A DNA stretch of 64,000 bases from Cytophagales bacterium. Lineage in GTDB: Bacteria > Bacteroidota > Bacteroidia > Cytophagales > 172606-1. The notes under the pieces were generated by a model, which had not been told where the DNA came from, did no database searches, and worked only from the letters and a program-made list of their open reading frames with translations. The stretch lies in assembly GCA_030446715.1 (NCBI GenBank), contig JAUJMU010000002.1, forward strand, positions 310,369-374,368. Direction: 5' to 3'. Below, in pieces: positions 33,133 to 57,295 of this stretch. The number at the start of each line of letters is the position of its first letter. The stretch's first letter is position 1. The position numbers were made by a program, and so were the translations under genes.

Positions 33133-33744
33133 TTACAAGAATAGGTGAACGATCTGAAACAGGGCCGTGGCAACCATCATAAGCCCTACTGCCCGGTTGA
33201 CCAGCCCGCCCGGGAGCGAAAACCGCCGCGACAGGTAACGGCCCGAAAAGGCGAACAACTCCAGAGCCAGCAGGGTGCCCAGCGCAATGCCGCTCAGGTA
33301 CAAGGCCAGTCCGGGCCCCTCCATGACCATGATCCAGCCCTGGCCGGTGAGCAAAGCCGTGTACACCACCCAGAAAGGGATGGCTACCACGTTGACCATG
33401 CTCAGCCCGATGCCCAGGTAGAACGGCCGGGACAGCGTCTTATTGGAGAGTCCGGCTTCCTTTTTACGCAGGTAGTACACCCCGGCGGCCAGCAGCAGCC
33501 CCGTCGAGAATACTTCCACGGCAACGTGGTAACGCCCCAGCTTCATCAGCGAAGTAGCCAGCAGGATGGCCAGGTAGCTGTAACCGACCTCCACCACTAC
33601 GCAGGCGGCGGCAAAACCCAGAGCCGCCCCCATGCCCCGCTGCAGCGAAAGCTGTACAATAGTGGCGTTGAGAATACCCGGGGGCAGCGAGCCCAGAAAG
33701 CTCACCAGGGTACCCGCCACAAAACCCGTCAGCATCCATTCCAT
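33133..33744 (-). CDS. LysE/RhtB family exporter
   Basis: 203 residues, about six membrane helices. The N-terminus MLTGFVAGTLVSFLGSLPPGILNATIVQLSLQRG carries the family's PPG-type motif in helix I, and GFAAACVVVEVGYSYLAILLA follows. The family exports amino acids or small metabolites. It is the first gene of a two-gene operon with the hydrolase at 32245. The cargo cannot be read from the sequence. Confidence 0.85.
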   Translation of the reverse strand: MEWMLTGFVAGTLVSFLGSLPPGILNATIVQLSLQRGMGAALGFAAACVVVEVGYSYLAILLATSLMKLGRYHVAVEVFSTGLLLAAGVYYLRKKEAGLSNKTLSRPFYLGIGLSMVNVVAIPFWVVYTALLTGQGWIMVMEGPGLALYLSGIALGTLLALELFAFSGRYLSRRFSLPGGLVNRAVGLMMVATALFQIVHLFL

Positions 33745-34210: not shown

Positions 34211-35257
34211 TTACTGCATTTGTTTCCGGTAGGCTCTCAGCTTTAAAAAAGCCCTCATCCCTTCGGCAAAGGAAAGATACACAACCCCGTTCCGGTAATT
34301 GGCCTGACTGATGCGGTACAGTACGGACCAATGGCGGAACAGCACCCGGTAGGCTTCGCGGCGCGAAAAGGACGGGTCGTAAATATGCGCCGGTTCGGCC
34401 CCGGCCCCGTTCAGTTCCAGAATCTTGATGCCTTCGCCCTGATAGAGTTCAGCCAGGCTGCGGCAGCGGATGTCGTAGCGGCCGTAGTAGAACCCGTCAA
34501 TCGACTGGCTGATGCGGTCGAACACGGCCACCAGTTGATCGTTGATCAGGTAGTTGCCGTTCAAGAACTTGGTACCCCGGCTGTGGTTCCCGATGGGCAC
34601 CAGTTGGATCGCTTCCCCGGCGGGCAACACCCGGTCGAACAGGTGGGCGTACCGGTCATGCAACGTCTGGTACTGCAACCGGGCCCGGTCATTGTGCATA
34701 ATCAACTCCCGCACCGTGGAGGCACCGTCGCCGGTGAGGCTGAGGAAGGCTTTGATCACCACCGAAGAGATGTGCCCGGTAGGGCAGCCCGGGAAACGGT
34801 AGTAGAACAGCCCCAGTTCAACCGGATAGTCCACGTATTCCTGGATCAGATAGGGCGCCTTCATGCCGGCGTGGTAGGCAGCCAGTTCGGCCGGGTTGTG
34901 GAGTTTCTCGACCTTCCAGCCCCGTTCGCCTACGTCAGGCTTGGCAATGAGCGGGAAGCCGATCTCGTGCCGGTGCAGGCTTTCCCGCAATGGAATGAGA
35001 CCCGTGGCCGGGCAAATCAGCAGGGTGACGGGTTTGAGGGGGGCGGCGATCCGGTTGAGAATCTTCACCTTGGATTCCCCCAGCATCCCGCCATTCTCGA
35101 TGGATGGATTGACCGCCGAGAAGAAGAAAAAGGACCGGGCCTTCGCCGAAAGCCAGAGCCAGTACACAAATATGGGCAGGTAGATCACCTCAAACGGCCA
35201 GTACTCCCACTGCGTGAGGCGGGTCATGAAGTTGAGGTACCGGATGTAGAGCAGCAT
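34211..35257 (-). CDS. ATP-grasp (D-Ala-D-Ala ligase-like) protein
   Basis: 348 residues. A hydrophobic N-terminal stretch (WPFEVIYLPIFVYWLWLSA) suggests membrane contact. ATP-grasp signs follow: GFPLIAKPDVGERGWKVEKL, YLIQEYVDYPVELGLFYYRFP, IKAFLSLTGDGASTVRELI, and a metal site in GIKILELNGAGAEPAHIYDP (E-x-N). The domain ligates a carboxylate to an amine using ATP. Related Bacteroidota proteins are annotated only to domain level; substrate unknown. Confidence 0.82.
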   Translation of the reverse strand: MLLYIRYLNFMTRLTQWEYWPFEVIYLPIFVYWLWLSAKARSFFFFSAVNPSIENGGMLGESKVKILNRIAAPLKPVTLLICPATGLIPLRESLHRHEIGFPLIAKPDVGERGWKVEKLHNPAELAAYHAGMKAPYLIQEYVDYPVELGLFYYRFPGCPTGHISSVVIKAFLSLTGDGASTVRELIMHNDRARLQYQTLHDRYAHLFDRVLPAGEAIQLVPIGNHSRGTKFLNGNYLINDQLVAVFDRISQSIDGFYYGRYDIRCRSLAELYQGEGIKILELNGAGAEPAHIYDPSFSRREAYRVLFRHWSVLYRISQANYRNGVVYLSFAEGMRAFLKLRAYRKQMQ

Positions 35258-35456: not shown

Positions 35457-36176
35457 TTACATGATGCGGTAGGTCTGTTCGCGCCTTTGCACCAGGTCTT
35501 CGTACACCATCAGGTGTTCGCCGGATTGCTGGCGGGCAATGCTGGTGATGCTCACGGTCTGGTGCCCGCTTCCGCGGTGCATCCGGAGGCCGTTACCGGA
35601 ATCGTCCTGCCCGGCGGAATGGTGAAAATGCAGGATATCCTCCACCTGGTAACCCTCCCGGCCGGCCAGCCAACTGGCAAACCAACCTTCCCGCCGGCGG
35701 ATCACTTCGGGCGAATAAAGCGTTGCCGACGACCAGATGTAAGGCTTGCCTGCATCTTTTACGGAGAAATGAACCTCTTTTCCATCCCACCGGATTTCGG
35801 TCAGGGACAAAGCCGGTTCGGTGCGGACCACCAGCAGGGTAAAAGGCTCAATGCCCCGGAAATTGTATTCGGTGGCAAATTCACCCGCGTAATCGTAGCC
35901 AAAGAAATCCAGCAGCACTTTTCCCCGGCTCTGCCGGTAAGGCGGACAGGACCGGTGAGCCCCAAAAGCCCCGTTGAGCAGACACAGGCTTACGCCTTTG
36001 CCGGAAGTGACGATCCAGGTGCCGCCACCCACGGGGTCGCACGGGAAGACCAGCATCTGATCGTGGAGCCGGTAGCGGCCCGGGGCCCGGGCGGGCAGGC
36101 GGTCTGCACTTTCGTCCCGGTTGGAGGTCAGAATAAATCCTTTATTGCCCAGCGGCAGAAACGTCACGGTGCACAT
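35457..36176 (-). CDS. NRDE family protein (TANGO2-like)
   Basis: 239 residues from the ATG at 36176. The N-terminus MCTVTFLPLGNKGFILTSNRDES contains the family-naming NRDE motif preceded by the conserved Cys at position 2. Further signs: FPCDPVGGGTWIVTSGKGV and LLNGAFGAHRSCPPYRQSRG. The family is related to Ntn hydrolases and, in eukaryotes, to heme or lipid handling; the bacterial role is not established. Its start overlaps the end of the DinB-like gene by 35 bp, so the two are co-transcribed. An upstream in-frame start at 36296 would lie inside that gene and is rejected. Confidence 0.88.
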   Translation of the reverse strand: MCTVTFLPLGNKGFILTSNRDESADRLPARAPGRYRLHDQMLVFPCDPVGGGTWIVTSGKGVSLCLLNGAFGAHRSCPPYRQSRGKVLLDFFGYDYAGEFATEYNFRGIEPFTLLVVRTEPALSLTEIRWDGKEVHFSVKDAGKPYIWSSATLYSPEVIRRREGWFASWLAGREGYQVEDILHFHHSAGQDDSGNGLRMHRGSGHQTVSITSIARQQSGEHLMVYEDLVQRREQTYRIM

Positions 36177-36678
36177 GGGCTTGTTGATATTGAAGAGTAG
36201 AAGGGGCCACGCCAAATGAATCGGGAAGCGGTACCGGGTTGGGTATTGCCCCAAGCCCGATGCGGATGGTGGCCTGATGGTGAATACAATGTTCAAGGTT
36301 ATACACCAACTCCCGGTATAGGGTAGTTGGTATGGTTACCTTTTCGCCGGGGGCGTAGCTGGTGCATAACAGGAGGGGCTGGTCGGAGCCAACCTCCCCG
36401 ATACGCTTCATCAGGTATTCCAGTGCGGCTGCCGCAAGCGCCTGTTCTTCCTCCAGCATTTGGTTTCTGGTGCGGGCGTCGTAATCAACGGTGCCGGTCA
36501 CCAGCCCTCCGAACAAACACTGGTAAAACTCCACCAGATGCCTGACGTGCCGGCCAATGGTTCCGCCCGAGAGGACCGGCAGTGGTGTATGGAAGTGTTC
36601 AGCTTCGATTGTGCGCAGTACCGCAACCAGCTGACTCAAAGATTGAAGGGATGCCTTTTGCAGGGATGAACTATTCAT
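36142..36678 (-). CDS. DinB-like four-helix protein
   Basis: 178 residues. Metal-ligand pattern of the DinB/YfiT superfamily: GGTIGRHVRHLVEFYQCLFGG with the first His pair and ELVYNLEHCIHHQATIRIGL with the C-terminal His (HCIHHQA). This fold uses a divalent metal and often acts as a thiol-dependent transferase. The helical core covers the first ~160 residues; the tail is poorly conserved and overlaps the NRDE gene. Function in this organism is unknown. Confidence 0.75.
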   Translation of the reverse strand: MNSSSLQKASLQSLSQLVAVLRTIEAEHFHTPLPVLSGGTIGRHVRHLVEFYQCLFGGLVTGTVDYDARTRNQMLEEEQALAAAALEYLMKRIGEVGSDQPLLLCTSYAPGEKVTIPTTLYRELVYNLEHCIHHQATIRIGLGAIPNPVPLPDSFGVAPSTLQYQQAHVHRDVSAAGQ

Positions 36679-36703: not shown

Positions 36704-37123
36704 TTACGACTTTCTGCTGGCCATAGGCCTCCCCAGCCGGGAGCCCAGAAAAGGAATCTGGGCCCGGCGGATCCATAGAATGCCCCCACAACTGAAAAAC
36801 ACCACCAGTCCCAGAAAGAACAGGTAGCCACCATCGCCCTGCACCTCAATGCCCAGAATGGTCAGGTGCGACACGAGGGCACCGCTGATAATGCCAACGC
36901 CCAGCAGGGCGCCGAGCCAGGCAGTACCCGGGATCAGCAGCAGCACCGAGGCAATCAGTTCGGCCACGCCGGTGCCGATACGGCCGGCGTCACCCAGACC
37001 AACTTTCCCGAAAATATAAACAGATTCCGGGGCAGCTGAAAATTTAAAGAACAGCGATTGTACCATGATCAGGGCACTGAGGCCCTGCAGGGCCCAGGAG
37101 ATGTAAAGGGATGGCTTTTTCAT
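36704..37123 (-). CDS. DoxX-like membrane protein
   Basis: 139 residues with four membrane helices (LYISWALQGLSALIMVQSLF, GVAELIASVLLLIP, LGALLGVGIISGALVSHL, YLFFLGLVVFFSCGGILW) and a short basic tail. The pattern FKFSAAPESVYIF after helix I and the G-x-x-E in helix II resemble DoxX-family proteins. Some are linked to redox or sulfur processes; no role can be derived here. It lies 25 bp upstream of the DinB-like gene, so three genes may form one operon (DoxX, DinB, NRDE). Confidence 0.78.
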   Translation of the reverse strand: MKKPSLYISWALQGLSALIMVQSLFFKFSAAPESVYIFGKVGLGDAGRIGTGVAELIASVLLLIPGTAWLGALLGVGIISGALVSHLTILGIEVQGDGGYLFFLGLVVFFSCGGILWIRRAQIPFLGSRLGRPMASRKS

Positions 37124-37301
37124 GGGGGAAACTGAATGAGGTGAGGTAAGTAGTTGTTAGTTATCAGTTGTTCGTTGTCAGATTCATAATGCACTGATCG
37201 TCAGTTTCGTAATACCACTAAAATACCCTATACTTTTGTACAGGTGCCTAAACAGGGAAAGACGAAAGGGGAAAAGGAAACTTACCGGTCTGAACTGGTG
37301 C

Positions 37302-37760
37302 TTACACTCCGTCCGTTTTGTAGAATTTAGTCCAGCTGGCATCCGCTTTCTGCTTCAGGCTGGCTTCGTCCTTGTTCCATTTAGGTAGTGTATTGTTAAA
37401 AAACTTGTTGTAAAACAGGTACAGCTTTCCGTCAACGACCTTAAATGTTTCCGGATCAATGTCTACCTTTTCACCCGTTGCACCCATTGCGTACGCACAC
37501 CAGCCACCGTACTGGGGCTCATACCCGGCGGGGTTTTGTTTAAATGTCTCCAGATTTTTGGCATTGGCAAACTGGTAGGTAGTGCCCTGATGGGAGAAGG
37601 CATTTGCCGGAGTGCCCTTCACGGCTTTTTTCTGGGTCAGATAGGCCACCGGATCATATCCCTGAAGGGCCAGCCCGGATTCCAGGTTAAACTGCTTTTT
37701 GCGTTTGTCGGCTTCAGTCTGGGCCGAGGCCGGGGTCAGGAAGACCGCGCCAGCCACCAT
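37302..37760 (-). CDS. Secreted YHS-domain protein, first of two paralogues
   Basis: 152 residues from the ATG at 37760. YHS-type core: LQGYDPVAYLTQKKAVKGT, YQFANAKNLETFKQNP and PQYGGWCAYAM, probably a small metal-binding domain. The frame can be followed upstream as KTLFLYLVSMVAGAVFLTP, ASAQ, an ideal signal peptide, but the matching ATG (37791) is out of frame by one base at a run of five A. With four A the protein would start MKTLFLYLVS. So either a one-base frameshift shortened the signal peptide or the run varies in length. A Crp/Fnr-like site lies at 37841. Confidence 0.82.
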   Translation of the reverse strand: MVAGAVFLTPASAQTEADKRKKQFNLESGLALQGYDPVAYLTQKKAVKGTPANAFSHQGTTYQFANAKNLETFKQNPAGYEPQYGGWCAYAMGATGEKVDIDPETFKVVDGKLYLFYNKFFNNTLPKWNKDEASLKQKADASWTKFYKTDGV

Positions 37761-37812: not shown

Positions 37813-37820
37813 CAAAAGTA
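37813..37820 (-). promoter_or_regulatory. -7 promoter box for the first YHS gene
   Basis: TACTTTTG on the minus strand, 22 bp before the ATG at 37791. It lies 29.5 bp downstream of the centre of the palindrome at 37841-37858, the same spacing as at the second YHS gene. No -33 TTTG is seen. Confidence 0.65.
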
Positions 37821-37840
37821 ACACATACTCCGGAGGCCGA

Positions 37841-37858
37841 TTGTCCGGCAAGCGACAA
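37841..37858. promoter_or_regulatory. Putative Crp/Fnr-type operator, first copy
   Basis: TTGTCCGGCAAGCGACAA: 5-bp arms TTGTC/GACAA around 8 bp, extended by A/T to six. It differs at only two positions from the copy at 39494. If transcription starts about 12 bp after the first base of the -7 box, its centre is near -41.5, the position used by class II activators. Binding by the neighbouring Crp/Fnr protein is inferred. Confidence 0.7.
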
Positions 37859-37881
37859 TTGACCGGAAATAGCAAAAGTAA

Positions 37882-38039
37882 ATAGTTATTGGTTATTGGT
37901 ATGACAAAAGCTTGGTTCTTATTCGTTGATAGAACCGCTGGTAAAAACCAATGTAAAAAATTAAGGCCTGCGAACTGAACAACCAATAACCACTAACTAA
38001 TAACCAATAACTCCTAACTCCTAACCCCCAACTCCTCAA
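37882..38039. repeat. Inverted and tandem AT-rich repeat words
   Basis: AGTTATTGGTTATT (37885-37898) and AATAACCAATAACT (37999-38012) are a perfect 14-bp inverted pair. Around the second arm there is an imperfect array of TAACYNNYAA words (CTAACTAATAACCAATAAC, then CTCCTAAC repeated) running to the crp stop. Similar words occur at 37148 and 49334. They are non-coding and possibly RNA 3'-end structure. Confidence 0.6.
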
Positions 38040-38720
38040 CTACCGGAATTCAGCCGGGTTGGGGATGGTGATCTGGCTGCGGGAGTAGAGGACTTTGTTT
38101 TCCTTTTCCAGCTGATTGAGGACGGAAGTAACCGTCTGGCGGGTGGCACCGGTGAGGGAGGCAAGGTCCTGGTGGGTAAGATAGTTCTTCACGATCAGCT
38201 GATCGTTTTCCACCTTGCCGTTTACCTGGGCAAAATGCTTCAGAAACTCAATGACCCGGGTACGTACATCCTTGAAAATCAAATCGGCGTACCGGTTTTC
38301 GAGGGCTTTGAGTTTATCGCCGACCCGCCTGGTGTACTTGAGCGATATGGCCGGATTTTTTTCCAGTACCTTTTCAAAATCATCAAGGGTAAAGGAGCAG
38401 ATGATGACTTCGTCACTGATGGCCCTTGCGAATTCCGATTCGGGAGAAACATTCCGGCTGAGGGTAATTTCGCCGAACAGGTCGCCCGGCTGCATCACTT
38501 CCTTGGTCACTTCGTTGCCCGCCTCGTCGGAGGACACAATCTTGATGACGCCTTTCTTGAGTAAATAAATCCGCTTTACCGACTCGTGCGAGAAGTAGAT
38601 GATCTCGTTCTTGTGGGCCCGCTTAAAGCCGGTAATCACGCACAGCGCCTTGATTTCGGTTTCGTTCATCTGCGTAAACAACTCGTGATTGCGCAGGTAC
38701 CAGTACTTGATTGTTTCCAT
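38040..38720 (-). CDS. Crp/Fnr family transcriptional regulator
   Basis: 226 residues. N-terminal cyclic-nucleotide-binding-like domain (about 1-130: FSHESVKRIYLLKKGVIKIV, PGDLFGEITLS) and C-terminal Crp winged helix (LTHQDLASLTGATRQTVTSV, LNQLEKEN). The cysteine content is low with no N-terminal Fe-S cluster motif, so it is not a classical Fnr; the PGDLFGE pocket resembles but does not prove cAMP binding. It lies between two YHS genes on the same strand, each with a near-identical palindrome at an activator position, so these are its likely targets. Confidence 0.93.
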   Translation of the reverse strand: METIKYWYLRNHELFTQMNETEIKALCVITGFKRAHKNEIIYFSHESVKRIYLLKKGVIKIVSSDEAGNEVTKEVMQPGDLFGEITLSRNVSPESEFARAISDEVIICSFTLDDFEKVLEKNPAISLKYTRRVGDKLKALENRYADLIFKDVRTRVIEFLKHFAQVNGKVENDQLIVKNYLTHQDLASLTGATRQTVTSVLNQLEKENKVLYSRSQITIPNPAEFR

Positions 38721-38903
38721 GCAGGGAGAAGTGGATACTTGTGAGGATAAGGTTTTGCGCAGGAAGGGTGCCTGCGCCGGCGAAATACCCGGTCATTTCA
38801 AGTCCTTCCTGACGAGGCAATGTAAAGCGTAACCGCAAGGAAATTCTCTCGAAAGTATAACAATAAGATAAAAAATTTCTGCAAAAGCGAATTTGGGCAA
38901 AAA

Positions 38904-38930
38904 GACCTGCCCATCATTGCTGGGCAGGTC
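38904..38930 (-). terminator. Intrinsic terminator of the second YHS gene
   Basis: Perfect 10-bp stem GACCTGCCCA/TGGGCAGGTC with a 7-base loop. Read on the minus strand it is followed directly by TTTTT (38903 leftward). It lies 69 bp after the stop of the YHS gene at 39000 and before the crp gene, so those two are separate transcripts. Confidence 0.88.
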
Positions 38931-38999
38931 TCCGGTCCAATGAACAGCCGTGGGTTTGACCAGACCCCGAAAGGATAGCCTTCAGGTTATCCGGAAGCC

Positions 39000-39443
39000 C
39001 TACTTCTGATTAACCACCTGAGGCCAGTTGGCATCTGCCTTTTTAATGTAACCGGGTGTGTCCTTGCTCCAGGTTTCCTTCACTTTCCGGTTGTAATTCA
39101 GGTATAGTTTATTGTCCACGATTGTCCAGGCACCGGCTTCGGTGGGTGCTTTGTAGCCGCTGGACGTACCGTACGCGCAGTAGCCGCCGTACTGCGGGGC
39201 ATATTTCTCCGGATCGGCTTTAAACGCATCCAGATTTTCCTTGCTGGCAAAATGCCAGTCGGCCCCTTTCCAGGCGTATTTAAGCTCAGGGGTTCCTTTT
39301 ACGGGCTTACTTTGGGTAAAATAGGCCACGGGATCATAGCCCCGGATGGCACCGGCGTCGGTGACGAACACCGGGGATTTCTGGGCAAAAACGGGAACGG
39401 TGAGCAACAGCAACAGAATGGCAACAGATGCAATAGTTTTCAC
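39000..39443 (-). CDS. Secreted YHS-domain protein, second paralogue
   Basis: 147 residues from a GTG at 39443. Signal peptide VKTIASVAILLLLLTVPVFA then AQKSPVF. Core like the first paralogue: AIRGYDPVAYFTQSKPVKGT, WHFASKENLDAFKADP, PQYGGYCAYGTSSG, then a YLNYNRKVKETWSKD tail. The frame is open much further upstream, but that sequence overlaps the divergent DUF3667 gene and is not protein-like; the GTG is placed ideally for the signal peptide. A TACCTTTG box and a Crp/Fnr-like palindrome precede it at the same spacing as for the first paralogue. Confidence 0.88.
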   Translation of the reverse strand: MKTIASVAILLLLLTVPVFAQKSPVFVTDAGAIRGYDPVAYFTQSKPVKGTPELKYAWKGADWHFASKENLDAFKADPEKYAPQYGGYCAYGTSSGYKAPTEAGAWTIVDNKLYLNYNRKVKETWSKDTPGYIKKADANWPQVVNQK

Positions 39444-39465
39444 GGGGTTTGTCTTTTGATATGGG

Positions 39466-39473
39466 CAAAGGTA
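39466..39473 (-). promoter_or_regulatory. -7 promoter box for the second YHS gene
   Basis: TACCTTTG on the minus strand (TAnnTTTG type), 23 bp before the GTG start at 39443 and 29.5 bp downstream of the centre of the palindrome at 39494-39511. Confidence 0.65.
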
Positions 39474-39493
39474 ACACCGGGTGATCGGGGAAA

Positions 39494-39511
39494 TTGTCGG
39501 GCAGGCGACAA
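39494..39511. promoter_or_regulatory. Putative Crp/Fnr-type operator, second copy
   Basis: TTGTCGGGCAGGCGACAA, matching the copy at 37841 at 16 of 18 positions with both arms identical. It lies 51 bp upstream of the start codon; the first copy lies 50 bp upstream of its ATG. It also sits 32 bp before the divergent DUF3667 start at 39543, so it might affect that gene too. Confidence 0.7.
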
Positions 39512-46266: not shown

Positions 46267-47775
46267 TCAGCCTCGCCTGACCGGCAGCCGGAACGAGAAG
46301 CGCGAACCCTGATTAAGCGCCGTTTGGACGGATAGTTCAGCGTGGTGCAGTTCCAGTATCTTTTTGACAATCACCAGCCCCAGGCCCATGCCGCCGGGCG
46401 GGGGGTTTGGCTGGTTTTCGGCCCGGCGGTAATAGCGGTCAAAAATGTACGGCAGCACGTCGGGTGCAATGCCCGTGCCGGTATCGGCTACTGAAACCTC
46501 TACCGCTGCGGCCGACTCCGCGATGCGGATGGCGACGCTGCCGCCGGCCGGCGTGTATTTGATGGCGTTGTCGACCAGGTTGTGCAACACCCGCTCCACC
46601 ATGCCGGCGTCAATTTCGACGATGGTCACGCCCGCGCCGTTGGTGCACGAGAGGGAGATGTGTTTCCGGCTCGCCTGGAGCTGAAAGGCCTGGTACACCT
46701 CCTGCACGAGTTCCCTGATGTTGATGGGTTCGCGTTGGGGCGTACTTTCGAGGGCGTCCAGCTTGGAAAGCTCAAAGAGCTCTTCCACCAGATGTTGGAG
46801 TTTGCCGGCGCTTTGCCGGATGATGTGGGTGTAATAATCCCGTTCGGTGTCGGCCAGCTCATTTTTTTTGAGCCACAGCGTCTCGGCGTACCCGTAGATG
46901 GCCGTGACCGGCGTGCGCAGGTCGTGGGAAATATTGGCGATCAGCTCGCGGCGCAGCCGCTCGAGCATCTGCAACTCCTCCAGGTTAGCCGCCATCTTGT
47001 CGGCCATTTGGTTAAAGGTCTGGGCCAGTTCGGCCAGTTCCCCGGTAGCCCGCAACCGGATGCGGGCTGTCAGGTCGCCTTCCCGGAACCGGTGGACGGT
47101 GGAAGTAATTTCCGTCAGGTTGCGGGTAATGAACCAGAAAGCCACCAGTCCGATCACAAACGCCACCAGCAGGGTTACCGCCAGGGTACGGCTCACAAGT
47201 TGGGCAAGGTGGTCGCCCAGCAGCAAGGCCAGCGCCGAATCGTAGCGTTCACCCGTGAGCACCACGTACACGTACCCCGACAAGCGTCCGTTCCGTTCCA
47301 CGCGGGCGGCCGAAAAGATCTTTTCCCGGGTTTCGCTCCTGGGGTCGCCGCCGCGGATAAAAAGCGTTTGCCCCGAAGCGATGTAGCGTTCAAGCGGTTC
47401 GAGGGCGACCTTTTTTCGAAGGAGGGATTGGTTGGGGGGATGGTTGGTAAGAATGCGCCCGGCCGTATCGAGCAGGTACACCTCGATGCTGGGGTTGATG
47501 ACCATGGCATTGAAGAAAATCCGCTGCACGCTCCCCTCGTCCACGCCCTCCTCCACGAAGGGCGACATGTACTGGACGATCCGCCCGGCTACCTGGCTGT
47601 TGAGCCGCTGCTGGGCCGCGTCAAAATACGTGCGGGCCGACGTGACGGTGATGTACACGTAGGTGCCGGCCAGCAGGGTCAACACGGCCAGAAAAGTGAG
47701 CGACAACTGCCAGTATAACCCCGAGAACCAGGTTTTGGAGAAGAAACCGAATCGGCTGGCTTGCTTGGTATCCAT
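46267..47775 (-). CDS. Sensor histidine kinase with HAMP domain
   Basis: 502 residues. Membrane helix about 17-41, periplasmic sensor about 42-190 (YFDAAQQRLNSQVAGRIVQY, ARVERNGRLSGYVYVV), second helix about 191-213, HAMP (EITSTVHRFREGDLTARIRL), HisKA with ANISHDLRTPVTAIYGYAE (phospho-His), and HATPase (VLHNLVDNAIKYTPAGG, DTGTGIAPDVLPYIFDRYYR, GGMGLGLVIVKKIL). Partner of the OmpR-type regulator just upstream (5-bp gap). The four genes from 50290 to 46267 on this strand are closely spaced and probably one operon. Confidence 0.95.
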   Translation of the reverse strand: MDTKQASRFGFFSKTWFSGLYWQLSLTFLAVLTLLAGTYVYITVTSARTYFDAAQQRLNSQVAGRIVQYMSPFVEEGVDEGSVQRIFFNAMVINPSIEVYLLDTAGRILTNHPPNQSLLRKKVALEPLERYIASGQTLFIRGGDPRSETREKIFSAARVERNGRLSGYVYVVLTGERYDSALALLLGDHLAQLVSRTLAVTLLVAFVIGLVAFWFITRNLTEITSTVHRFREGDLTARIRLRATGELAELAQTFNQMADKMAANLEELQMLERLRRELIANISHDLRTPVTAIYGYAETLWLKKNELADTERDYYTHIIRQSAGKLQHLVEELFELSKLDALESTPQREPINIRELVQEVYQAFQLQASRKHISLSCTNGAGVTIVEIDAGMVERVLHNLVDNAIKYTPAGGSVAIRIAESAAAVEVSVADTGTGIAPDVLPYIFDRYYRRAENQPNPPPGGMGLGLVIVKKILELHHAELSVQTALNQGSRFSFRLPVRRG

Positions 47776-47780
47776 CAGTT

Positions 47781-48476
47781 TTATTCGGCGAAGCGATAGC
47801 CGATGCCCCAGGTCGTTAAAATGTAAACCGGGTGGTTGAAATCGGGTTCAATCTTGATGCGCAGGCGGTTGATGTGGGTGGTGATGGTGTGCTCGTAGCC
47901 CTCAAAACCCATGCCCCAGACGCTGTCGAGGAGTTCTTTGCGGGAGTAGCTGTGTCCCGGATTGGCAGCCAGCAGCAAGAGCAGATCAAACTCCTTGGGC
48001 GTGAGTTCCACTCGCTGTTCCCCGAGGGTAACCCTGCGCTTTTCGGGATTAATCCGCAAATTTTTGAAATAGATGGGCAGGAGTGGCTTGGCGACCGGCT
48101 CAGTCCTCAGCAGCTCACTGCGGCGCAGGAGTGCTTTCACGCGGGCCGTCAATTCGCGCACCCCGAAGGGTTTGGTCAGGTAATCATCGGCTCCCAGTTC
48201 GAGCCCGATTACTTTGTCAACCTCCTCCGACTTAGCCGTCAGCATCATGATCGGCGTAGTGAGGCCGGCCATCCGGAGTCGTTTGCACACTTCGAGTCCA
48301 TCCATGTCGGGGAGCATAATGTCCAGAATGACCAGATCAAACGGACTTTGCAAGGCCCTGGAATACCCTTCCGCTCCCCTCCCAACTGCCGTTACGTCGC
48401 CCGGCAGATCGGCCAGGTGAATCCGAACCAGGCCGATCACGTTTTCATCATCTTCCACCAGGAGAATTTTCTTCAT
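47781..48476 (-). CDS. OmpR/PhoB-family response regulator
   Basis: 231 residues. Receiver domain with acidic pocket (LLVEDDENVIG), phospho-Asp in LVILDIMLPDMDGLEV, Thr/Lys switch (MLTAKS, YLTKPFG), then a winged-helix DNA-binding domain (VELTPKEFDLLLLLAANPGH, EHTITTHINRLRIKIE). Forms a two-component system with the kinase encoded next. Lies 3 bp after the barrel-protein gene stop. Confidence 0.96.
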   Translation of the reverse strand: MKKILLVEDDENVIGLVRIHLADLPGDVTAVGRGAEGYSRALQSPFDLVILDIMLPDMDGLEVCKRLRMAGLTTPIMMLTAKSEEVDKVIGLELGADDYLTKPFGVRELTARVKALLRRSELLRTEPVAKPLLPIYFKNLRINPEKRRVTLGEQRVELTPKEFDLLLLLAANPGHSYSRKELLDSVWGMGFEGYEHTITTHINRLRIKIEPDFNHPVYILTTWGIGYRFAE

Positions 48477-48479
48477 GAT

Positions 48480-49316
48480 TTATAATTTCCATAAAACCCC
48501 GGCACTCCAGTTGGGAGCAGCCAGAATATTTCGTCCGGTCAGGGCAAAGCCCCCCGAAGCGCTGATGCCCAGGTGCTCCGTCCACTGGTAGTTTACCTCG
48601 GCGGTGGGTGAAAAATACTCGGTGTTATTGGAGAAAATGCCGTTTTGTACGGCTTCCGCCTTCCCGTTGAAGAAGGATTCCACGCTGTTGATTTTCAGAA
48701 TGGGTGTGAATTTTTTCAGGGTGACGCCGATTTCGGCCCCGTAGCGGAACTCGTCCGAAAAACCCCGGGTACGGTTATTGAACCCGACGTAAGCCGAGGC
48801 AAAGATTTTGGCAGTCAGTGAACCGCTTACGTCGAGCCGCACCAACTGGTTAAACTCCCCGTCGCCGGTTTGCAGGATGCCCGACCGGCCACCTCCGGTA
48901 TCCCCCAGCGGCAACCCGAGCAGCACCGTAAAACTGGCATAAAAGGGCTTACCGGCCAGAAAGGTATACTTGAGCCCCACGTCCGAATCCCCGATTGCAT
49001 TCACGGCATCGCCGGGTTCGGTGTTGCCGCTCTGCTGGTACTGAATTTCGTTCAGCGTCCCCCGCACGAAGAACGGAAAGTAGGCAATGCCCGTCAGGCG
49101 GCCCGTAAGGCCGTACTCCCCGTAGATGCTGGTGGTATAGAGGCTGGTGGTGGTAATGTCAATCACCTCCCCGGCCGGGTTAAAGAAGTAGGAGGAACGG
49201 ATTACATTCTGCCCGAGCTTGAAAAAGCCTTTTCCTTTGGGCTGCGGCCACCCACCACCCGCAAGGACGGCAAACGGCAAAAACGCCAGAACGGCGATGG
49301 TAACGATTTTTTTCAT
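48480..49316 (-). CDS. Putative outer-membrane beta-barrel protein
   Basis: 278 residues from the ATG at 49316. Signal peptide MKKIVTIAVLAFLPFAVLA; thereafter a strand-rich sequence typical of MetA/FadL-type or transporter-like barrels (GKGFFKLGQNVIRSSYFFNP, YTTSIYGEYGLTGRLTGIAY, ASFTVLLGLPLGDTGGGRSG, AEIGVTLKKFTPILKIN) ending in Leu after GVLWK. No precise family is asserted. Sits between an Ig-like secreted protein and the two-component regulator genes, so its level or cargo may be tied to that sensor. Confidence 0.72.
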   Translation of the reverse strand: MKKIVTIAVLAFLPFAVLAGGGWPQPKGKGFFKLGQNVIRSSYFFNPAGEVIDITTTSLYTTSIYGEYGLTGRLTGIAYFPFFVRGTLNEIQYQQSGNTEPGDAVNAIGDSDVGLKYTFLAGKPFYASFTVLLGLPLGDTGGGRSGILQTGDGEFNQLVRLDVSGSLTAKIFASAYVGFNNRTRGFSDEFRYGAEIGVTLKKFTPILKINSVESFFNGKAEAVQNGIFSNNTEYFSPTAEVNYQWTEHLGISASGGFALTGRNILAAPNWSAGVLWKL

Positions 49317-49366
49317 GGTTTTTGGATTCAAACAAACAACTAATAACCAGTAGCTAACTACCACTG

Positions 49367-50290
49367 TCAGTTGAGGTCGGCGTAGCCGAAGGTGACGGTA
49401 GCGGGCCGGCAGAGGATAATTACGTAGCGGTAGTCGAACAGGCCAACATTGGGGTTGACGGCGGAAATATTAAATGTCCTGGCCCCGTTGTCCCGGATCT
49501 GCGCCACTTCCAGCCCCGACGACCGGACATTGCCGGCGTTGGTGGAGTTGGCCAGATAGATGTAGGTGCCCAGGGCAAAGCTGGTCCGGAAATTACTGCC
49601 GAGATCAAGGATCACTTGTCCGTTCCCGGTGCGCAGCATAGCCGTGCCAGAAGCCGCATAGCCCCCGGCGGGAACAAACTGCCCCGACCGGGCCGCACCC
49701 ACGGTAAGGTCCACGGAGTTGCTTTTCACCCCATTTACCTTGGCATGTACGGCAGCTATCCCGTTGGCTACCACCGTTGCCTGTCCCTGCGCATCCACCT
49801 GCACAATGGCGGCATTTTCCGAAAACCACTCCACCGGTTTACCCGTCAGCGCTTCGCCCCGGATGTTGAGCACCTCAGCGGTCAGGAAAATCATTTCGCC
49901 CCGGTTCAGGCTGGTTTTAGCCGCGGCTACCGTGACGGAGGCCACTCCGTTTTCATCGGTGATTACGTTCACGTTTACCAGCGGTCCCATAAATTCGCCG
50001 AGGGAAGCCTTCACCACCGACTGCCCCGCCCCCAATGCCTGTACCAGACCGTTCTGATCCACAGTGGCCACCAGCGGGTTGGACGAAATCCAGCTCAGTG
50101 CCAACTGCCGGGCAATGCCAAACTGGTCGTAGTAACTGGCCGTAAGCTGCTCACGCTGACCGGGCTGCAGCGCCACCTGTTGCCGGGACACTTCAATGCG
50201 CTGGCCGACAGTGGGATCGTCTTCGCGGTCGGTTCCAATGCAGCCCTGCAACAGGACCGCCAGCAGAAGAAAGGAAAGGATTGGTTTCAT
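49367..50290 (-). CDS. Secreted lipoprotein with bacterial Ig-like (Big_2) domains
   Basis: 307 residues. Lipoprotein signal MKPILSFLLLAVLLQGCIG with the Cys in LQGCIG. Two Ig-like repeats: residues ~30-115 (QRIEVSRQQVALQPGQREQL, ISSNPLVATVDQNGLVQALG, QSVVKASLG) and ~118-205 (VTVAAAKTSLNRGEMIFLTA, WFSENAAIVQVDAQGQATVV). The last ~100 residues are a separate strand-rich region. The family works in adhesion or surface structure. It is the first gene of the probable four-gene operon ending with the kinase. Confidence 0.8.
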   Translation of the reverse strand: MKPILSFLLLAVLLQGCIGTDREDDPTVGQRIEVSRQQVALQPGQREQLTASYYDQFGIARQLALSWISSNPLVATVDQNGLVQALGAGQSVVKASLGEFMGPLVNVNVITDENGVASVTVAAAKTSLNRGEMIFLTAEVLNIRGEALTGKPVEWFSENAAIVQVDAQGQATVVANGIAAVHAKVNGVKSNSVDLTVGAARSGQFVPAGGYAASGTAMLRTGNGQVILDLGSNFRTSFALGTYIYLANSTNAGNVRSSGLEVAQIRDNGARTFNISAVNPNVGLFDYRYVIILCRPATVTFGYADLN

Positions 50291-50440
50291 ACTTTTTTCC
50301 GAAAGGTACTTCCGGCCACACGGGGCGTTTGTCGTTCACCTGACATTCGGAAGCAATTCAAAAAAACTCCCCATTTGTCTGGCTCCCGACATTTACAGAC
50401 GGCAGTTGCCGCTATATTGCCGGGCATCAACCCCATTGCC

Positions 50441-51175
50441 ATGTTCCGATCCTTGCTGCTTGCCTCCCTGCTGCTGGTCGTCCTCTTCGGACCGGCAACT
50501 GCCCAATCCCGTTTTTCGCACGCCGCCTGGGACGCCCTGCTCAAAAAGCACGTCAGCGCAAAGGGCGTGGTCAATTACCGGGGATTCATTAAAGACAGCC
50601 TTGCGCTGAACCAGTATCTTCAACAACTGACCGCCAACTATCCGCAGGAAAAGGCCTGGAGCCGCGGGGAGCAAATGGCCTGGTGGCTGAACGCCTATAA
50701 TGCTTACACCGTGCAGCTGATTGCCCGGCACTACCCGCTGAAAAGCATCAACGACATCAAACAGGCGGGAGCCAAGTCGCCCTGGGACATTCCGTTCATT
50801 TCCCTGAACGGAAATAAGATTACCCTCAACCACATCGAACACGAAATCCTGCGCAGGAAATTTGCCGATCCGCGCATCCACTTCGGGATTGTGTGCGCCT
50901 CGCAGTCCTGTCCGAAGCTGGCCAATGAGGCCCTTGAAGCAGGCAAGCTGGACGCCCAGCTGGACCGCCTGACGAAGGAATTTCTGGATGATCCTTCCCG
51001 CAATAAAATCACCACGGAGCAGGCGCAGGTATCGCAGATTTTCAACTGGTTTAAGGAAGACTTTACCCGGAAGGGCACCGTACCTGAGTTTATTAACCAA
51101 TACGCGGCCGTCAAAATCGGGAATAAGTCTAAAATCAGTTACCTTGAATACGACTGGGGCCTGAACGACAAATAA
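50441..51175 (+). CDS. DUF547 domain-containing secreted protein
   Basis: 244 residues from the ATG at 50441. Signal peptide MFRSLLLASLLLVVLFGPATAQ. DUF547 hallmark segments: WWLNAYNAYTVQLIARHYPL, KSPWDIPFISLNGNKITLNH, IEHEILRRKFADPRIHFGIV, CASQSCPKLANEAL. The conserved Cys pair, Asn and His suggest an enzyme, but the activity is unknown. It is followed 99 bp later by the FAD oxidoreductase gene on the same strand. The frame is open from 49616, but that lies over the antisense Ig-like gene. Confidence 0.88.
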   Translation: MFRSLLLASLLLVVLFGPATAQSRFSHAAWDALLKKHVSAKGVVNYRGFIKDSLALNQYLQQLTANYPQEKAWSRGEQMAWWLNAYNAYTVQLIARHYPLKSINDIKQAGAKSPWDIPFISLNGNKITLNHIEHEILRRKFADPRIHFGIVCASQSCPKLANEALEAGKLDAQLDRLTKEFLDDPSRNKITTEQAQVSQIFNWFKEDFTRKGTVPEFINQYAAVKIGNKSKISYLEYDWGLNDK

Positions 51176-51274: not shown

Positions 51275-52579
51275 ATGCACCACCTCGTCATTATCGGCAA
51301 CGGCATATCGGGCGTCACCTGCGCGCGGCACGTCCGCAAACGCAGCAACTGCCGGATCACCATTGTCTCCTCCGAATCTGCGCATTTCTTTTCCCGAACG
51401 GCGCTGATGTACATTTACATGGGGCACCTCCGATACGAACACACCAAGCCGTACGAGGACGGATTCTGGGCCAAAAACAAAATTGAACTTTTGCAGAAGC
51501 ACGTGGTGCAGGTGATGACCGGCCCCAAAGAACTCGTTTTTTCCGACGGCAGCACCCTGGCGTACGACCAACTGGTCATTGCCAGTGGCTCCCGGCCCAA
51601 TACGTTCAGCTGGCCGGGCCACGATTTGCCCGGCGTGCAGGGGCTCTATAGCCTGCAGGACCTGCAAAGGCTGGAAAACCGCACGCCGCACATCCGGCGG
51701 GCCGTAATCGTGGGCGGCGGCCTGATCGGCATTGAACTGGCCGAAATGCTCCATTCGCGCCGCATTCCCGTGACATTTCTGGTGCGGGAACGCCACTTCT
51801 GGGGCAGCGTATTGCCCGCCGAAGAAGCCCGCATGATCAGCCGCCACATCGGGGAGCACCACATTGACCTCAGACCGCAAACTGAACTGGCCCAAATCAA
51901 AGGCGATGCCGCCAGCGGCGTACAGGCGGTGGTAACGAAGGCCGGCGAAGAAATTCCCTGCGAGTTTGTGGGTGTTACCGCGGGTGTAACGCCTAATATC
52001 GGTTTTTTGCAAGACTCTGGTATCCGGACAGACCGGGGGGTGCTGGTGAACGGTTTTTTTGAAACCAGCGTGCCGGACGTGTACGCCATCGGCGACTGCG
52101 CCCAGTACCAGAGTCCGCCGACGGGCCGCAAGCCGGTGGAGCAGGTCTGGTACACCGGCCGGATGCACGGCGAAACGCTGGCCCTGACGCTGACCGGGAA
52201 GCGAACTCCCTACACGCCGGGCCACTGGTTCAACTCGGCAAAGTTTCTCGACATCGAGTACCAGACCTACGGGCAGGTGGGCAACACCCTGGGCGAAAAC
52301 GAAGCGACCTTTTACTGGGAACATCCGGGCGGCCGGAAATCCCTGCGGGTAAATTACCACCCCCAGCGCCGGCAGGTAATCGGCTTCAACGCCTTCGGCA
52401 TCCGGCTCCGCCATGAGGTGTGTGACCGGTGGCTGACCGAAAAGAGGCCGGTAGAGTACGTGATCAGCCACCTGCAGGAGGCAAACTTCGACCCGGAGTT
52501 TTACCGGCGGCACGAAAAAGAAATTGCCAATGCCTTTGCGCGGCACCGGGAACAACCGGCAGGTGCGGTTTTGACGTAG
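51275..52579 (+). CDS. NAD(P)/FAD-dependent oxidoreductase
   Basis: 434 residues. Pyridine-nucleotide disulfide reductase fold without a redox CxxxxC: FAD motif LVIIGNGISGVTCARHVRK, VIASGSRPN, NAD(P) motif AVIVGGGLIGIELAEML, and the second FAD motif VPDVYAIGDCAQY. The C-terminal ~100 residues form an extra domain (ATFYWEHPGGRKSLRVNYHP, GFNAFGIRLRHEVCDRWL). Resembles reductases that pass electrons from NAD(P)H to an iron-sulfur partner. The next gene encodes a membrane 4Fe-4S protein, the likely acceptor; a 191-bp palindromic element separates them. Confidence 0.85.
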   Translation: MHHLVIIGNGISGVTCARHVRKRSNCRITIVSSESAHFFSRTALMYIYMGHLRYEHTKPYEDGFWAKNKIELLQKHVVQVMTGPKELVFSDGSTLAYDQLVIASGSRPNTFSWPGHDLPGVQGLYSLQDLQRLENRTPHIRRAVIVGGGLIGIELAEMLHSRRIPVTFLVRERHFWGSVLPAEEARMISRHIGEHHIDLRPQTELAQIKGDAASGVQAVVTKAGEEIPCEFVGVTAGVTPNIGFLQDSGIRTDRGVLVNGFFETSVPDVYAIGDCAQYQSPPTGRKPVEQVWYTGRMHGETLALTLTGKRTPYTPGHWFNSAKFLDIEYQTYGQVGNTLGENEATFYWEHPGGRKSLRVNYHPQRRQVIGFNAFGIRLRHEVCDRWLTEKRPVEYVISHLQEANFDPEFYRRHEKEIANAFARHREQPAGAVLT

Positions 52580-52599
52580 GCCGCCTAACCGGTACTTAC

Positions 52600-52790
52600 T
52601 ACATTGTAAAGCAAGTTTCTATGGATTTCAGCGACCTCTTTCTGTACTGTCATTCCCGGAGGGAACTTTTTTTGAATATGTCACGCATCGCCTATCCCCA
52701 AAAAGATTAGCTTCGCTGAGAGAGTTCCCTCCGGGAATAACAGCGAGAGGAGGCTAACCCGAAATACCGACTTGCTTAGTTGACAATGTA
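52600..52790. mobile_element. Miniature palindromic element B, 191 bp, 5-bp target duplication
   Basis: The two halves are imperfect inverted copies over about 70 bp: ends TACATTGT (52600) and ACAATGTA (52790), then AGCAAGT/ACTTGCT, and a perfect inner pair ATTCCCGGAGGGAACT and AGTTCCCTCCGGGAAT. The direct repeat CTTAC stands just outside both ends (52595-52599, 52791-52795). No coding capacity. It separates two functionally linked genes and would fold into a strong hairpin in their transcript. Confidence 0.8.
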
Positions 52791-52842
52791 CTTACTCCCT
52801 TTCAATGTACTTACGCCCTTTTCAATTATTAATTTATTCACA

Positions 52843-54390
52843 ATGGCTGCACTGGAAAAAATTGGTTTAAGTTTATTCGTAGTGGCGCTGGCCGGCTTCC
52901 TGTGGGCTTTCGGCACGAGCCACTACCGGCTCACGCCGGAAGTCGTACGCCAAAGCATTTCCGACACGGCGCACTACGCCCGGCTGGAGCCCGCCCTAAG
53001 GCCGCTGCTGGGGGTGGAATACACCTCCAATGTTGCTTTTGTCGGGGATGTGAAGGAAGCCATTAACCGGGTAAATGACGATTTCAAAAACAAAGGGCAG
53101 CGGGACCGGGTCATCTACAACGACTACACGTTCAGGCTGACCAAAAATGCCGGCAGTGGGATTCTCGTTCGCAATCCCTGGCTCTGGTTTTCGCTTATTT
53201 TCGGGCTGGCCGTGGCCGGCGGACTCCTGTACGCCGCGTCGCGCTACACGCGGCAACCCGCGGGCATCCAAAACAACGGCATTTTCTTCCGCTCCCTCAC
53301 CTCGCGGGGCTGGCTGGGCATTCTGCTGGGCGTGTTCCTGATTGCTTTCTACGTGATCCTGTACTGGTTTCCCGAATACATCACCAACTGGCTGGTGCTC
53401 GTGGACCCGCTCAGCCGGGCCATCAGCGGAAAACCCGCCAGCCAGTGGTTCCTCTACGGGGTGCTCTACACGCTGGTCATCCTTGTGCTGGGCGTGCGTA
53501 TGATCCTGAAATACCGCCACAGCCGCTACCAGACCATCCGCACCGGATCAGTGATGTTTTTCCAGACCGCTTTCGCCTTCCTGATCCCGGAAATCCTGGT
53601 GCTGCTCAACCAGCCCTGGTACGACTTCAAGAACATCTGGCCGCTGGACTATGATTTCTTTTACGCCTACAACCTGAATCAGCTGGTGCAATCGGGGTCT
53701 TTCGGGCTGTTTATGCTCATGTGGGGCATTCTGCTGATTATCGTGGCCGTGCCGGTGATCACGTATTTTTACGGCAAGCGGTGGTACTGCTCCTGGGTGT
53801 GCGGCTGCGGCGGACTGGCCGAAACAATGGGCGACCCCTACCGGCAGTTGTCGGATAAGTCGCTGAAGGCGTGGAAGGTGGAACGGTGGACGGTACACGG
53901 GGTGCTGGTATTCGCCGTCGGGATGACGGTAATTACACTCATTAATTATTTTTCCAGTTACCAGCTGCTGGGCGGCCTGACGGGCGAAGTGCAGAAAACC
54001 TACGGCTTCGTGATCGGGGCCGGCTTTGCGGGGGTGGTGGGCACAGGGTTCTATCCGTTCATGGGCAGCCGGGTCTGGTGCCGGTTCGGGTGTCCGCTGG
54101 CGGCGTACCTGGGCCTGGTGCAGCGGTTCAAATCCCGCTTCCGGATCACCACCAACGGCGGGCAGTGTATTTCCTGCGGCAACTGCTCCACCTACTGCGA
54201 AATGGGCATCGATGTGCGGTGGTACGCCCAGCGGGGGCAGAACATCGTGCGGTCTTCGTGCGTGGGCTGCGGCATCTGCGCGGCGGTGTGCCCCCGGGGT
54301 GTACTTAAACTCGAAAATGGCCCCGAAGCAGGCCGCTTCAACGAACAACCCATTCTGATCGGCAACGCCGGCGTGCGGTTACAGGAGTAA
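52843..54390 (+). CDS. Membrane-bound 4Fe-4S protein of the NapH/CcoG type
   Basis: 515 residues from the ATG at 52843. Membrane helix about 7-25, a periplasmic domain (about 26-105, conserved-looking RLTPEVVRQSISDTAHYARL), then about six helices with the NapH/CcoG motifs GKRWYCSWVCGCGGLAETMG and GSRVWCRFGCPLAAYLGLVQ. Two ferredoxin 4Fe-4S motifs close it: CISCGNCSTYCEMGIDV and CVGCGICAAVCPRGVL. It should pass electrons between a cytoplasmic donor and the membrane; the FAD oxidoreductase encoded upstream is the likely donor or acceptor. The final partner is unknown. Confidence 0.85.
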   Translation: MAALEKIGLSLFVVALAGFLWAFGTSHYRLTPEVVRQSISDTAHYARLEPALRPLLGVEYTSNVAFVGDVKEAINRVNDDFKNKGQRDRVIYNDYTFRLTKNAGSGILVRNPWLWFSLIFGLAVAGGLLYAASRYTRQPAGIQNNGIFFRSLTSRGWLGILLGVFLIAFYVILYWFPEYITNWLVLVDPLSRAISGKPASQWFLYGVLYTLVILVLGVRMILKYRHSRYQTIRTGSVMFFQTAFAFLIPEILVLLNQPWYDFKNIWPLDYDFFYAYNLNQLVQSGSFGLFMLMWGILLIIVAVPVITYFYGKRWYCSWVCGCGGLAETMGDPYRQLSDKSLKAWKVERWTVHGVLVFAVGMTVITLINYFSSYQLLGGLTGEVQKTYGFVIGAGFAGVVGTGFYPFMGSRVWCRFGCPLAAYLGLVQRFKSRFRITTNGGQCISCGNCSTYCEMGIDVRWYAQRGQNIVRSSCVGCGICAAVCPRGVLKLENGPEAGRFNEQPILIGNAGVRLQE

Positions 54391-57222: not shown

Positions 57223-57295
57223 TTGTCCTCCATCCGACATTCGGTAAGCCCTCCTCCCCTTTCTTTGCGGGCAATCACCTCTACATGGTCTTAAT

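Follow-up and report, generated by a model that had tools for sequence, protein, structure and literature searches.

A probable class II Crp/Fnr activator with its own operator and regulon in Bacteroidota

In the Cytophagales bacterium assembly GCA_030446715.1, contig JAUJMU010000002.1 carries a gene for a Crp/Fnr-family regulator with a gene for a YHS-domain protein on either side. We analyzed the surrounding 64,000 nucleotides (positions 310,369 to 374,368; hereafter the window, G000:C2:310369-374368 in our numbering), part of a draft genome of 6.43 Mb. The two small, presumably secreted YHS proteins, YHS1 and YHS2, are paralogues with 39% identity, and a palindrome followed by a TAnnTTTG promoter box precedes each of their genes. 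A run of minus-strand genes, conserved near the regulator gene in relatives, lies behind YHS1 (Table 1).

The regulator belongs to the Crp/Fnr superfamily, with a beta-roll cyclic nucleotide monophosphate (cNMP)-binding domain (PF00027, E 1.7e-14, 54 bits) followed by a Crp-type winged helix (PF13545, E 1.9e-11, 44.2 bits), both above the cut-off. Its AlphaFold model (predicted local distance difference test 79.8, predicted template modeling score 0.48) aligns with CRP-family chains, with a best Z of 14.3 over 202 residues and a root-mean-square deviation (rmsd) of 10.5. The nearest named relative that we found is the uncultured Cytophagales metagenome-assembled genome AVDCRST_MAG56, whose regulator has 89% identity.

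The initial annotation had centered the two palindromes 29.5 bp upstream of their TAnnTTTG boxes; both were re-located, each with exactly 20 bp between site and box. Class II activators bind near −41.5 in Escherichia coli. In Flavobacterium psychrophilum, the sigmaA TAnnTTTG box is placed at −12 to −5 (PMC9723704). With the box start at −12, as in that species, a center 29.5 bp further upstream would fall at −41.5, so the distance fits the class II activation first proposed for these sites. The accompanying statement that each site lies 50-51 bp before the start held in part: the near edges are 50-51 bp from ATG 37791 and GTG 39443, but ATG 37791 lies outside the YHS1 frame, in which the first ATG is at 37760. 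The out-of-frame ATG fits the leader length of relatives, and the A-run behind it has one base more than that of the relative L027; the shift reflects an assembly error or else a genuine loss of the signal peptide. The gap between YHS1 and the regulator gene (37880-38040) is filled with AT-rich, imperfect 'ccaataacc/taactcc' repeats, similar short runs of which occur at about 37155-37180 and 49335-49365. Against plasmid records, the window gave six partial DNA matches, mostly rhizobial and at YHS2, none spanning most of the stretch.

To define the operator, we aligned 33 leaders that agree with the palindrome (TTGTC..GACAA) in no fewer than 8 of 10 letters and, 20 bp away, with the box in no fewer than 5 of 6; the inner columns played no part in this selection. 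Of these, 32 precede YHS genes and one (L078) precedes a gene for a different protein of about 239 amino acids. The consensus is wTGT(C/A)R-NN-Y-R-G-C-Y-GACAw. Because a bias extends to the columns that flank TTGTC and GACAA on the inside (R in 33/33 leaders and Y in 28/33), the spacer is N6 and not N8, and the core reads wTGTCR-N6-YGACAw, which is the 16-bp CRP geometry (5-6-5) with one letter changed per half. The N8 spacer previously taken to indicate a new site class was thus a mis-parse: the site matches the cyclic AMP (cAMP)-CRP operator TGTGA-N6-TCACA in geometry but not in letters. Letter four of the left half is C in 26 and A in seven of the 33 leaders and never G, a count in which selection by TTGTC..GACAA favors C. 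The promoter-side half (GC-Y-GACA) is better conserved than the other, distal half, where TGTAA replaces TGTCR in 13 of 49 loci, mostly flavobacterial or from unplaced Bacteroidetes. On the protein side, R194-Q195 of the recognition helix is kept in all aligned regulators (R-Q-T-V-T here, R-E-T-V in Mycobacterium CRP), and R-Q in place of R-E would fit a TGTC operator as opposed to the TGTG of CRP. Residue 197 of the same helix covaries with operator base 5, being V in 29/36 C-type but 2/13 A-type loci (the 13 TGTAA loci mostly carry A, T, or I), a correlation confounded by lineage.

Conservation was assessed in the loci of the best 80 of 468 confirmed relatives of the regulator, many of which end at contig ends; their titles are mostly Bacteroidota, with one Ignavibacteriales and one given only as 'bacterium'. 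Weak 'YHS' matches in these loci (E 1e-13 to 1e-28) were the protein of about 239 amino acids, whose sole scanned member (L036) has no Pfam match, and their removal left YHS proper in 40 loci, not 42. A matrix scan of the window and the 80 loci returned 157 sites of at least 9 bits; 68 had a box of at least 6 bits at 12-28 bp, with the best box at 20 bp in 58. As the box matrix was built from 20-bp examples, the test was repeated with plain expressions and a free spacing of 5-44 bp. All 24 site-box pairs in YHS leaders were then at 20 bp, as were 39 of 40 pairs among all motif instances, the remaining one being at 19. The site expression matched 36/50 YHS leaders compared with 87/5000 stretches of 330 bp drawn at random from these loci, and it had 98 instances on both strands against nine for the reversed control. 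Three of the 14 YHS leaders without a site (L037, L040, L050) belong to second genes behind another YHS gene, and two (L042, L049) have a site just beyond the searched stretch. The palindrome is thus conserved before orthologous YHS genes, where its absence had been named beforehand as the outcome that would speak against the proposal. Site and box were present in 44/46 loci with at least two of the families DinB-like, YHS, DoxX, TANGO2, and ATP-grasp-like, versus 5/34 other loci, and the arrangement looks like a shared control circuit, not a chance repeat.

The bare palindrome is not enriched in the window, where TTGTC-N8-GACAA with up to two mismatches occurs 23 times and 25.5 occurrences are expected; its exact form has six places in the 6.4-Mb genome versus two for the reversed pattern. 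What is non-random is the combination of site, 20 bp, and box, together with its conservation. Without mismatch, TGTMR-N7-GACAW-N20-YANNTTTR matches this genome four times: at the two YHS promoters and, in opposite directions, twice at one site on contig 13. The other exact palindromes (L003-L006) are not among these and were rejected as regulon members, and a place at 57223-57240 of the window, with no good box, was taken as chance. Five one-mismatch places (C7:476060, C10:339317, C3:82228, C4:439575, C11:68546) have no convincing redox gene behind them and were not counted; another, C25:193694, had no locus and was left out.

The site also tracks the regulator across genomes. Among 59 relatives searched, 18 were regulator-positive at 1e-30, and the strict, mismatch-free pattern occurred in eight genomes, all of them positive; this agreement is partly circular because seven of the eight contributed to the training set. 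YHS genes gave 33 matches in 24 of these genomes, of which 29 were scored (G001:7454, G004:8931437, and G012:29715 had no locus; G022 was sub-threshold). A score of at least 18 bits was reached by 15 of the 17 YHS genes whose genome holds an ortholog at 1e-50 or better and by none of the other 12 (Fisher p 1.8e-6), three of which have a weaker regulator relative in the genome (best score 13.9, G025) and nine none. Eight of the 17 belong to the training set of the scoring matrix. Seven of the nine untrained genes pass, six with site and box (G001:C354, G016:C27, G004:8927511, G051:C30, G055:C50, G058:C52) and one, G001:C186:5634, with a site and a poor box. These six, apart from G004:8927511, are the five of the 15 passing genes that lie off the crp contig, which suggests action in trans. 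A survey of 295 genomes from the class found the strict pattern in seven and its reversed control in none. An ortholog at 1e-40 is present in 34 of the 295 and in five of the seven pattern genomes (p 2.7e-4), two of which (G000 and G016) contributed training leaders.

Table 1. Features of the window discussed in the text
Feature	Positions	Strand	Remarks
Operator of YHS1	37841..37858	-	TTGTCGCTTGCCGGACAA; exact site-and-box pattern match in own genome
-7 box of YHS1	37813..37820	-	TACTTTTG; 20 bp after operator
Operator of YHS2	39494..39511	-	TTGTCGCCTGCCCGACAA; exact site-and-box pattern match in own genome
-7 box of YHS2	39466..39473	-	TACCTTTG; 20 bp after operator
Crp/Fnr-family regulator	38040..38720	-	226 amino acids; cNMP-binding fold and Crp-type helix-turn-helix; relatives with conserved neighbors
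YHS1, YHS domain-containing (seleno)protein type, Cys form	37302..37760	-	NF041384 132.4 bits (cut-off 70); most of signal peptide out of frame
YHS2, YHS (seleno)protein type, Cys form	39000..39443	-	NF041384 168 bits (cut-off 70); GTG start, signal-peptide-like start
DoxX-like membrane protein	36704..37123	-	behind YHS1; DoxX_2 E 1.3e-5, 25.7 bits (cut-off 26.3); 37/80 loci
DinB-superfamily-like protein	36142..36678	-	DinB_2 E 4.1e-4, under cut-off; 43/80 loci
TANGO2-type protein	35457..36176	-	PF05742 E 5.4e-7 on longer open reading frame; start placed from MCTVTF motif of relatives; 36/80 loci
ATP-grasp-like protein	34211..35257	-	conserved operon; no Pfam match of its own; relatives in 32/80 loci, one with sub-threshold RimK/TTL similarity
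LysE-type exporter	33133..33744	-	conserved operon; PF01810 E 5.9e-8; 20/80 loci
Operator-like site	50329..50346	-	20 bp before box TACCTTTC (50308-50301, without final G); upstream of DM13-like lipoprotein gene
Lipoprotein, Ig-like repeats and DM13-like C-terminus	49367..50290	-	Big_2 E 4.5e-16; DM13 23.3 bits (cut-off 25)
Operator-like site, tentative	50375..50392	+	20 bp before weak box TATATTGC (4/6 letters); upstream of DUF547 gene
DUF547 protein	50441..51175	+	PF04784 E 6.6e-24

Eight blast families of neighbors are conserved across the 80 loci: YHS, the five that follow it in Table 1, and YceI and DM13 (20 loci each). The gene directly after the 67 places with site and box is YHS in 38, of the DM13 group in 13 (one in the window), LysE in three, DoxX in three, and Omp28-like in two; the remaining places have, one each, the beta-barrel-like gene of L078, a DinB-like, YceI, outer-membrane-like, AhpC-TSA, glutaredoxin, or DUF547 gene, and no gene. 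Pfam scans covered representatives of these targets; the Omp28 score was below the cut-off, and the DinB-like gene (L040) had no match. The small regulon of two YHS genes initially proposed was right in that the site follows the Crp ortholog, but too narrow, as several operons are involved. These targets also bear on the idea that both palindromes arose when a YHS promoter was duplicated locally and mean nothing for regulation. Two YHS paralogues around crp would suit that idea, but the same site and 20-bp spacing precede unrelated genes (the DM13 group, LysE, DoxX) and YHS genes off the crp contig, and we find it hardly credible.

The DM13-like lipoprotein of the window shares its blast group with 12 other site-linked genes, and both of the two that were scanned score as DM13. 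Behind the DUF547 gene lies a pyridine-nucleotide disulphide oxidoreductase gene (51275-52579; PF07992, E 2.4e-50), which with a 4Fe-4S membrane protein makes up a stretch (51275-54390) possibly of the same redox theme. A relationship of the gene at 48480-49316 to the 'c9' family of other loci was not supported (E 0.066). Elsewhere in this genome and in G001, of the same genus, the site precedes a lipoprotein-like msrA and then msrB (PF01625, PF01641; the msrB of G000 was scanned). Here msrA-msrB and a divergent DUF2652 gene (PF10851) share one palindrome with a box 20 bp away on both sides (L167:4006-4023 = G000:C13:261777-261850; L168:3978-3995), the DUF2652 partner in G001 being assigned from gene order. 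In G004, one site is likewise placed 20 bp from a box on either side, with YHS2 in one direction and a response regulator-histidine kinase pair in the other (L169:4988-5005). In this layout, a single dimer might act on the class II promoters of both divergent genes. The window has a kinase-regulator pair as well, at 46267-48476, downstream of the DM13-like gene.

The DUF2652 gene is relevant to the ligand. If the regulator were an ordinary cyclic-nucleotide-responsive Crp, this gene, which shares its site with msrA and whose product presumably resembles class III cyclases, would make the nucleotide, and the cNMP-binding domain above the cut-off would fit. The pocket argues otherwise. Position 94 is Glu in the window regulator and Arg in Mycobacterium CRP, where we take the aligned arginine to hold the cAMP phosphate. 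Arg occupies this position in 3/48 regulators with DinB, DoxX, or TANGO2 neighbors versus 24/34 others, and all 48 operon-linked regulators carry Glu at position 96. Counted anywhere in columns 92-95, Arg occurs in 6/49 regulators with a site in the locus versus 23/33 without. The phosphate-binding arginine of cAMP-CRP thus appears to be lost, as read from a gapped loop of the alignment, and we regard a cyclic-nucleotide-responsive Crp as quite unlikely. As for redox sensing, the regulator's only cysteines are Cys27 and Cys108. The latter was considered as a sensor; it is present in 48/48 operon-linked regulators but also in 32/34 without the operon and is not diagnostic.

In the YHS proteins, a single Cys is conserved (C88, 32/32 aligned proteins), as is Asp36. 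C88 sits in a GxC motif, the counterpart of the GxU that PMC13188914 lists for the selenocysteine (Sec) form of the family. This has consequences for an alternative in which the regulator senses copper or another metal that the YHS proteins would bind, along the lines suggested for TRASH/YHS domains. A probable copper sensor has been described in the YHS domain of a Mycobacterium phlei adenylyl cyclase, a proposal that requires one Asp and three Cys (PMC4626032). In the 32 aligned proteins, only the one Cys and Asp36 of these TRASH/YHS ligands are conserved, and no copper or heavy-metal resistance family was recognized among the eight conserved neighbor families; metal sensing is an unlikely reading. 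A fold search with the YHS protein found no solved structure at E of at most 0.001 (best second-look Z 7.4 over 65 residues, rmsd 2.8, an uninformative match), and phmmer found no significant relative of YHS1 or the DinB-like protein in the Protein Data Bank. At L063:7705-8736, an outer-membrane beta-barrel-like part is joined to a YHS domain (both Pfam scores below cut-off), and the protein of about 239 amino acids is a frequent neighbor in unfused form.

Several known systems resemble parts of this one. E. coli CRP class II promoters are alike in fold, in the symmetric 16-bp 5-6-5 site, and in the center at −41.5 of the expected start; they differ in the half-site, TGTGA as opposed to TGTCR, and the system here has a Bacteroidota −7 box and apparently no pocket arginine. 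The best sequence match among solved structures is NtcA of cyanobacteria (E 1.2e-19), which uses class II sites of the form GTA-N8-TAC and 2-oxoglutarate as ligand; site, ligand, and target genes all differ from those of the regulator here. FNR-type regulators belong to the same family with a possible redox role, but their defining N-terminal [4Fe-4S] cysteine cluster is absent from this protein, and their site, TTGAT-N4-ATCAA, is unlike the present operator. A possible parallel in content is the SigE regulon of Neisseria and the hypochlorite response of Haemophilus, where MsrAB and a DoxX-family cluster are under one regulator (PMC7907618). Those SigE/RpoE2 regulons are controlled by an extracytoplasmic function (ECF) sigma factor and its anti-sigma factor, in contrast to a Crp-type protein, and the main text of PMC7907618 mentions neither YHS nor YceI. 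Here DoxX is in 37/80 loci, and a site precedes msrA-msrB in two genomes of the genus. No description of the present regulon was found in the titles and abstract openings of the open-access papers listed.

Overall, we consider it likely that the protein encoded at 38040-38720 is a class II Crp/Fnr activator that does not use cAMP and controls an envelope redox-protection regulon. A number of observations tell against this. The alignment is gapped around the arginine position, as stated, and repression from the same operator position may also be compatible with the sequences. No site of this type lies upstream of the crp gene itself, operon loci L073 and L074 have none, and the YHS genes G004:6132696 and that of G009 have neither site nor box despite an ortholog in the genome. 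With up to one mismatch, site and box match 11 times in the own genome (three for the reversed control), with no fitting gene at most of the one-mismatch places, and 33 times in 15 of the 59 relatives (ten for the control). A site lies within 1400 bp of three of 30 readable MsrB loci (from 36 matches in 20 ortholog-bearing genomes), so that the strongest redox clue is lineage-specific and not general. Finally, G077 and G187 carry the strict pattern with no close ortholog (none at 1e-10; 23% identity), the match in G187 preceding a gene that reads as MsrB (L173, by sequence only). These two genomes, together with the second related Crp of some others (G051, G158, G209), would be explained if another Crp/Fnr paralogue of the same specificity, and not the linked protein, used the sites. 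As site and linked ortholog co-occur and residue 197 varies, within the confounding of lineage, with the operator base, we judge this very unlikely.

For the linked regulator as activator, we propose that its dimer would bind wTGTCR-N6-YGACAw, centered at −41.5 upstream of the TAnnTTTG −7 box, where it would replace the usual upstream promoter element and recruit RNA polymerase in the class II manner. Its targets would be the single-cysteine YHS genes with DoxX, DinB-like, TANGO2, ATP-grasp-like, and LysE genes, as well as DM13 and, in two genomes of the genus, msrA-msrB of the lipoprotein type. The signal is probably envelope oxidant or thiol stress and not cAMP: a redox signal is suggested because msrA-msrB, AhpC-TSA, and DM13 genes are among those with sites and because the YHS family has a Sec form. 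A bolder version is tentative and, in our estimate, somewhat short of even: a Bacteroidota-wide circuit in which a cAMP-free Crp/Fnr subfamily senses envelope oxidant (hypochlorite-like or thiol stress) and activates redox-repair operons at −41.5, including a new single-cysteine YHS reductant system, in a role parallel to that of the ECF sigma factor of Neisseria and Haemophilus.

Together, these results make the finding larger than first described, and we regard it as sound: a probable class II activator of the Crp/Fnr family that has an operator and a regulon of its own. A functionally dark set of genes (YHS, DoxX, DM13, DinB-like, TANGO2, and LysE), recurrent in several orders of Bacteroidota, would thereby be linked to a single regulator, a single operator, and a single promoter distance. 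On the unusual TAnnTTTG promoters of the phylum, a spacing that is almost always 20 bp would show class II geometry in a natural setting. If the signal is an oxidant, the system would provide a regulatory handle on the protection of envelope proteins in these bacteria.

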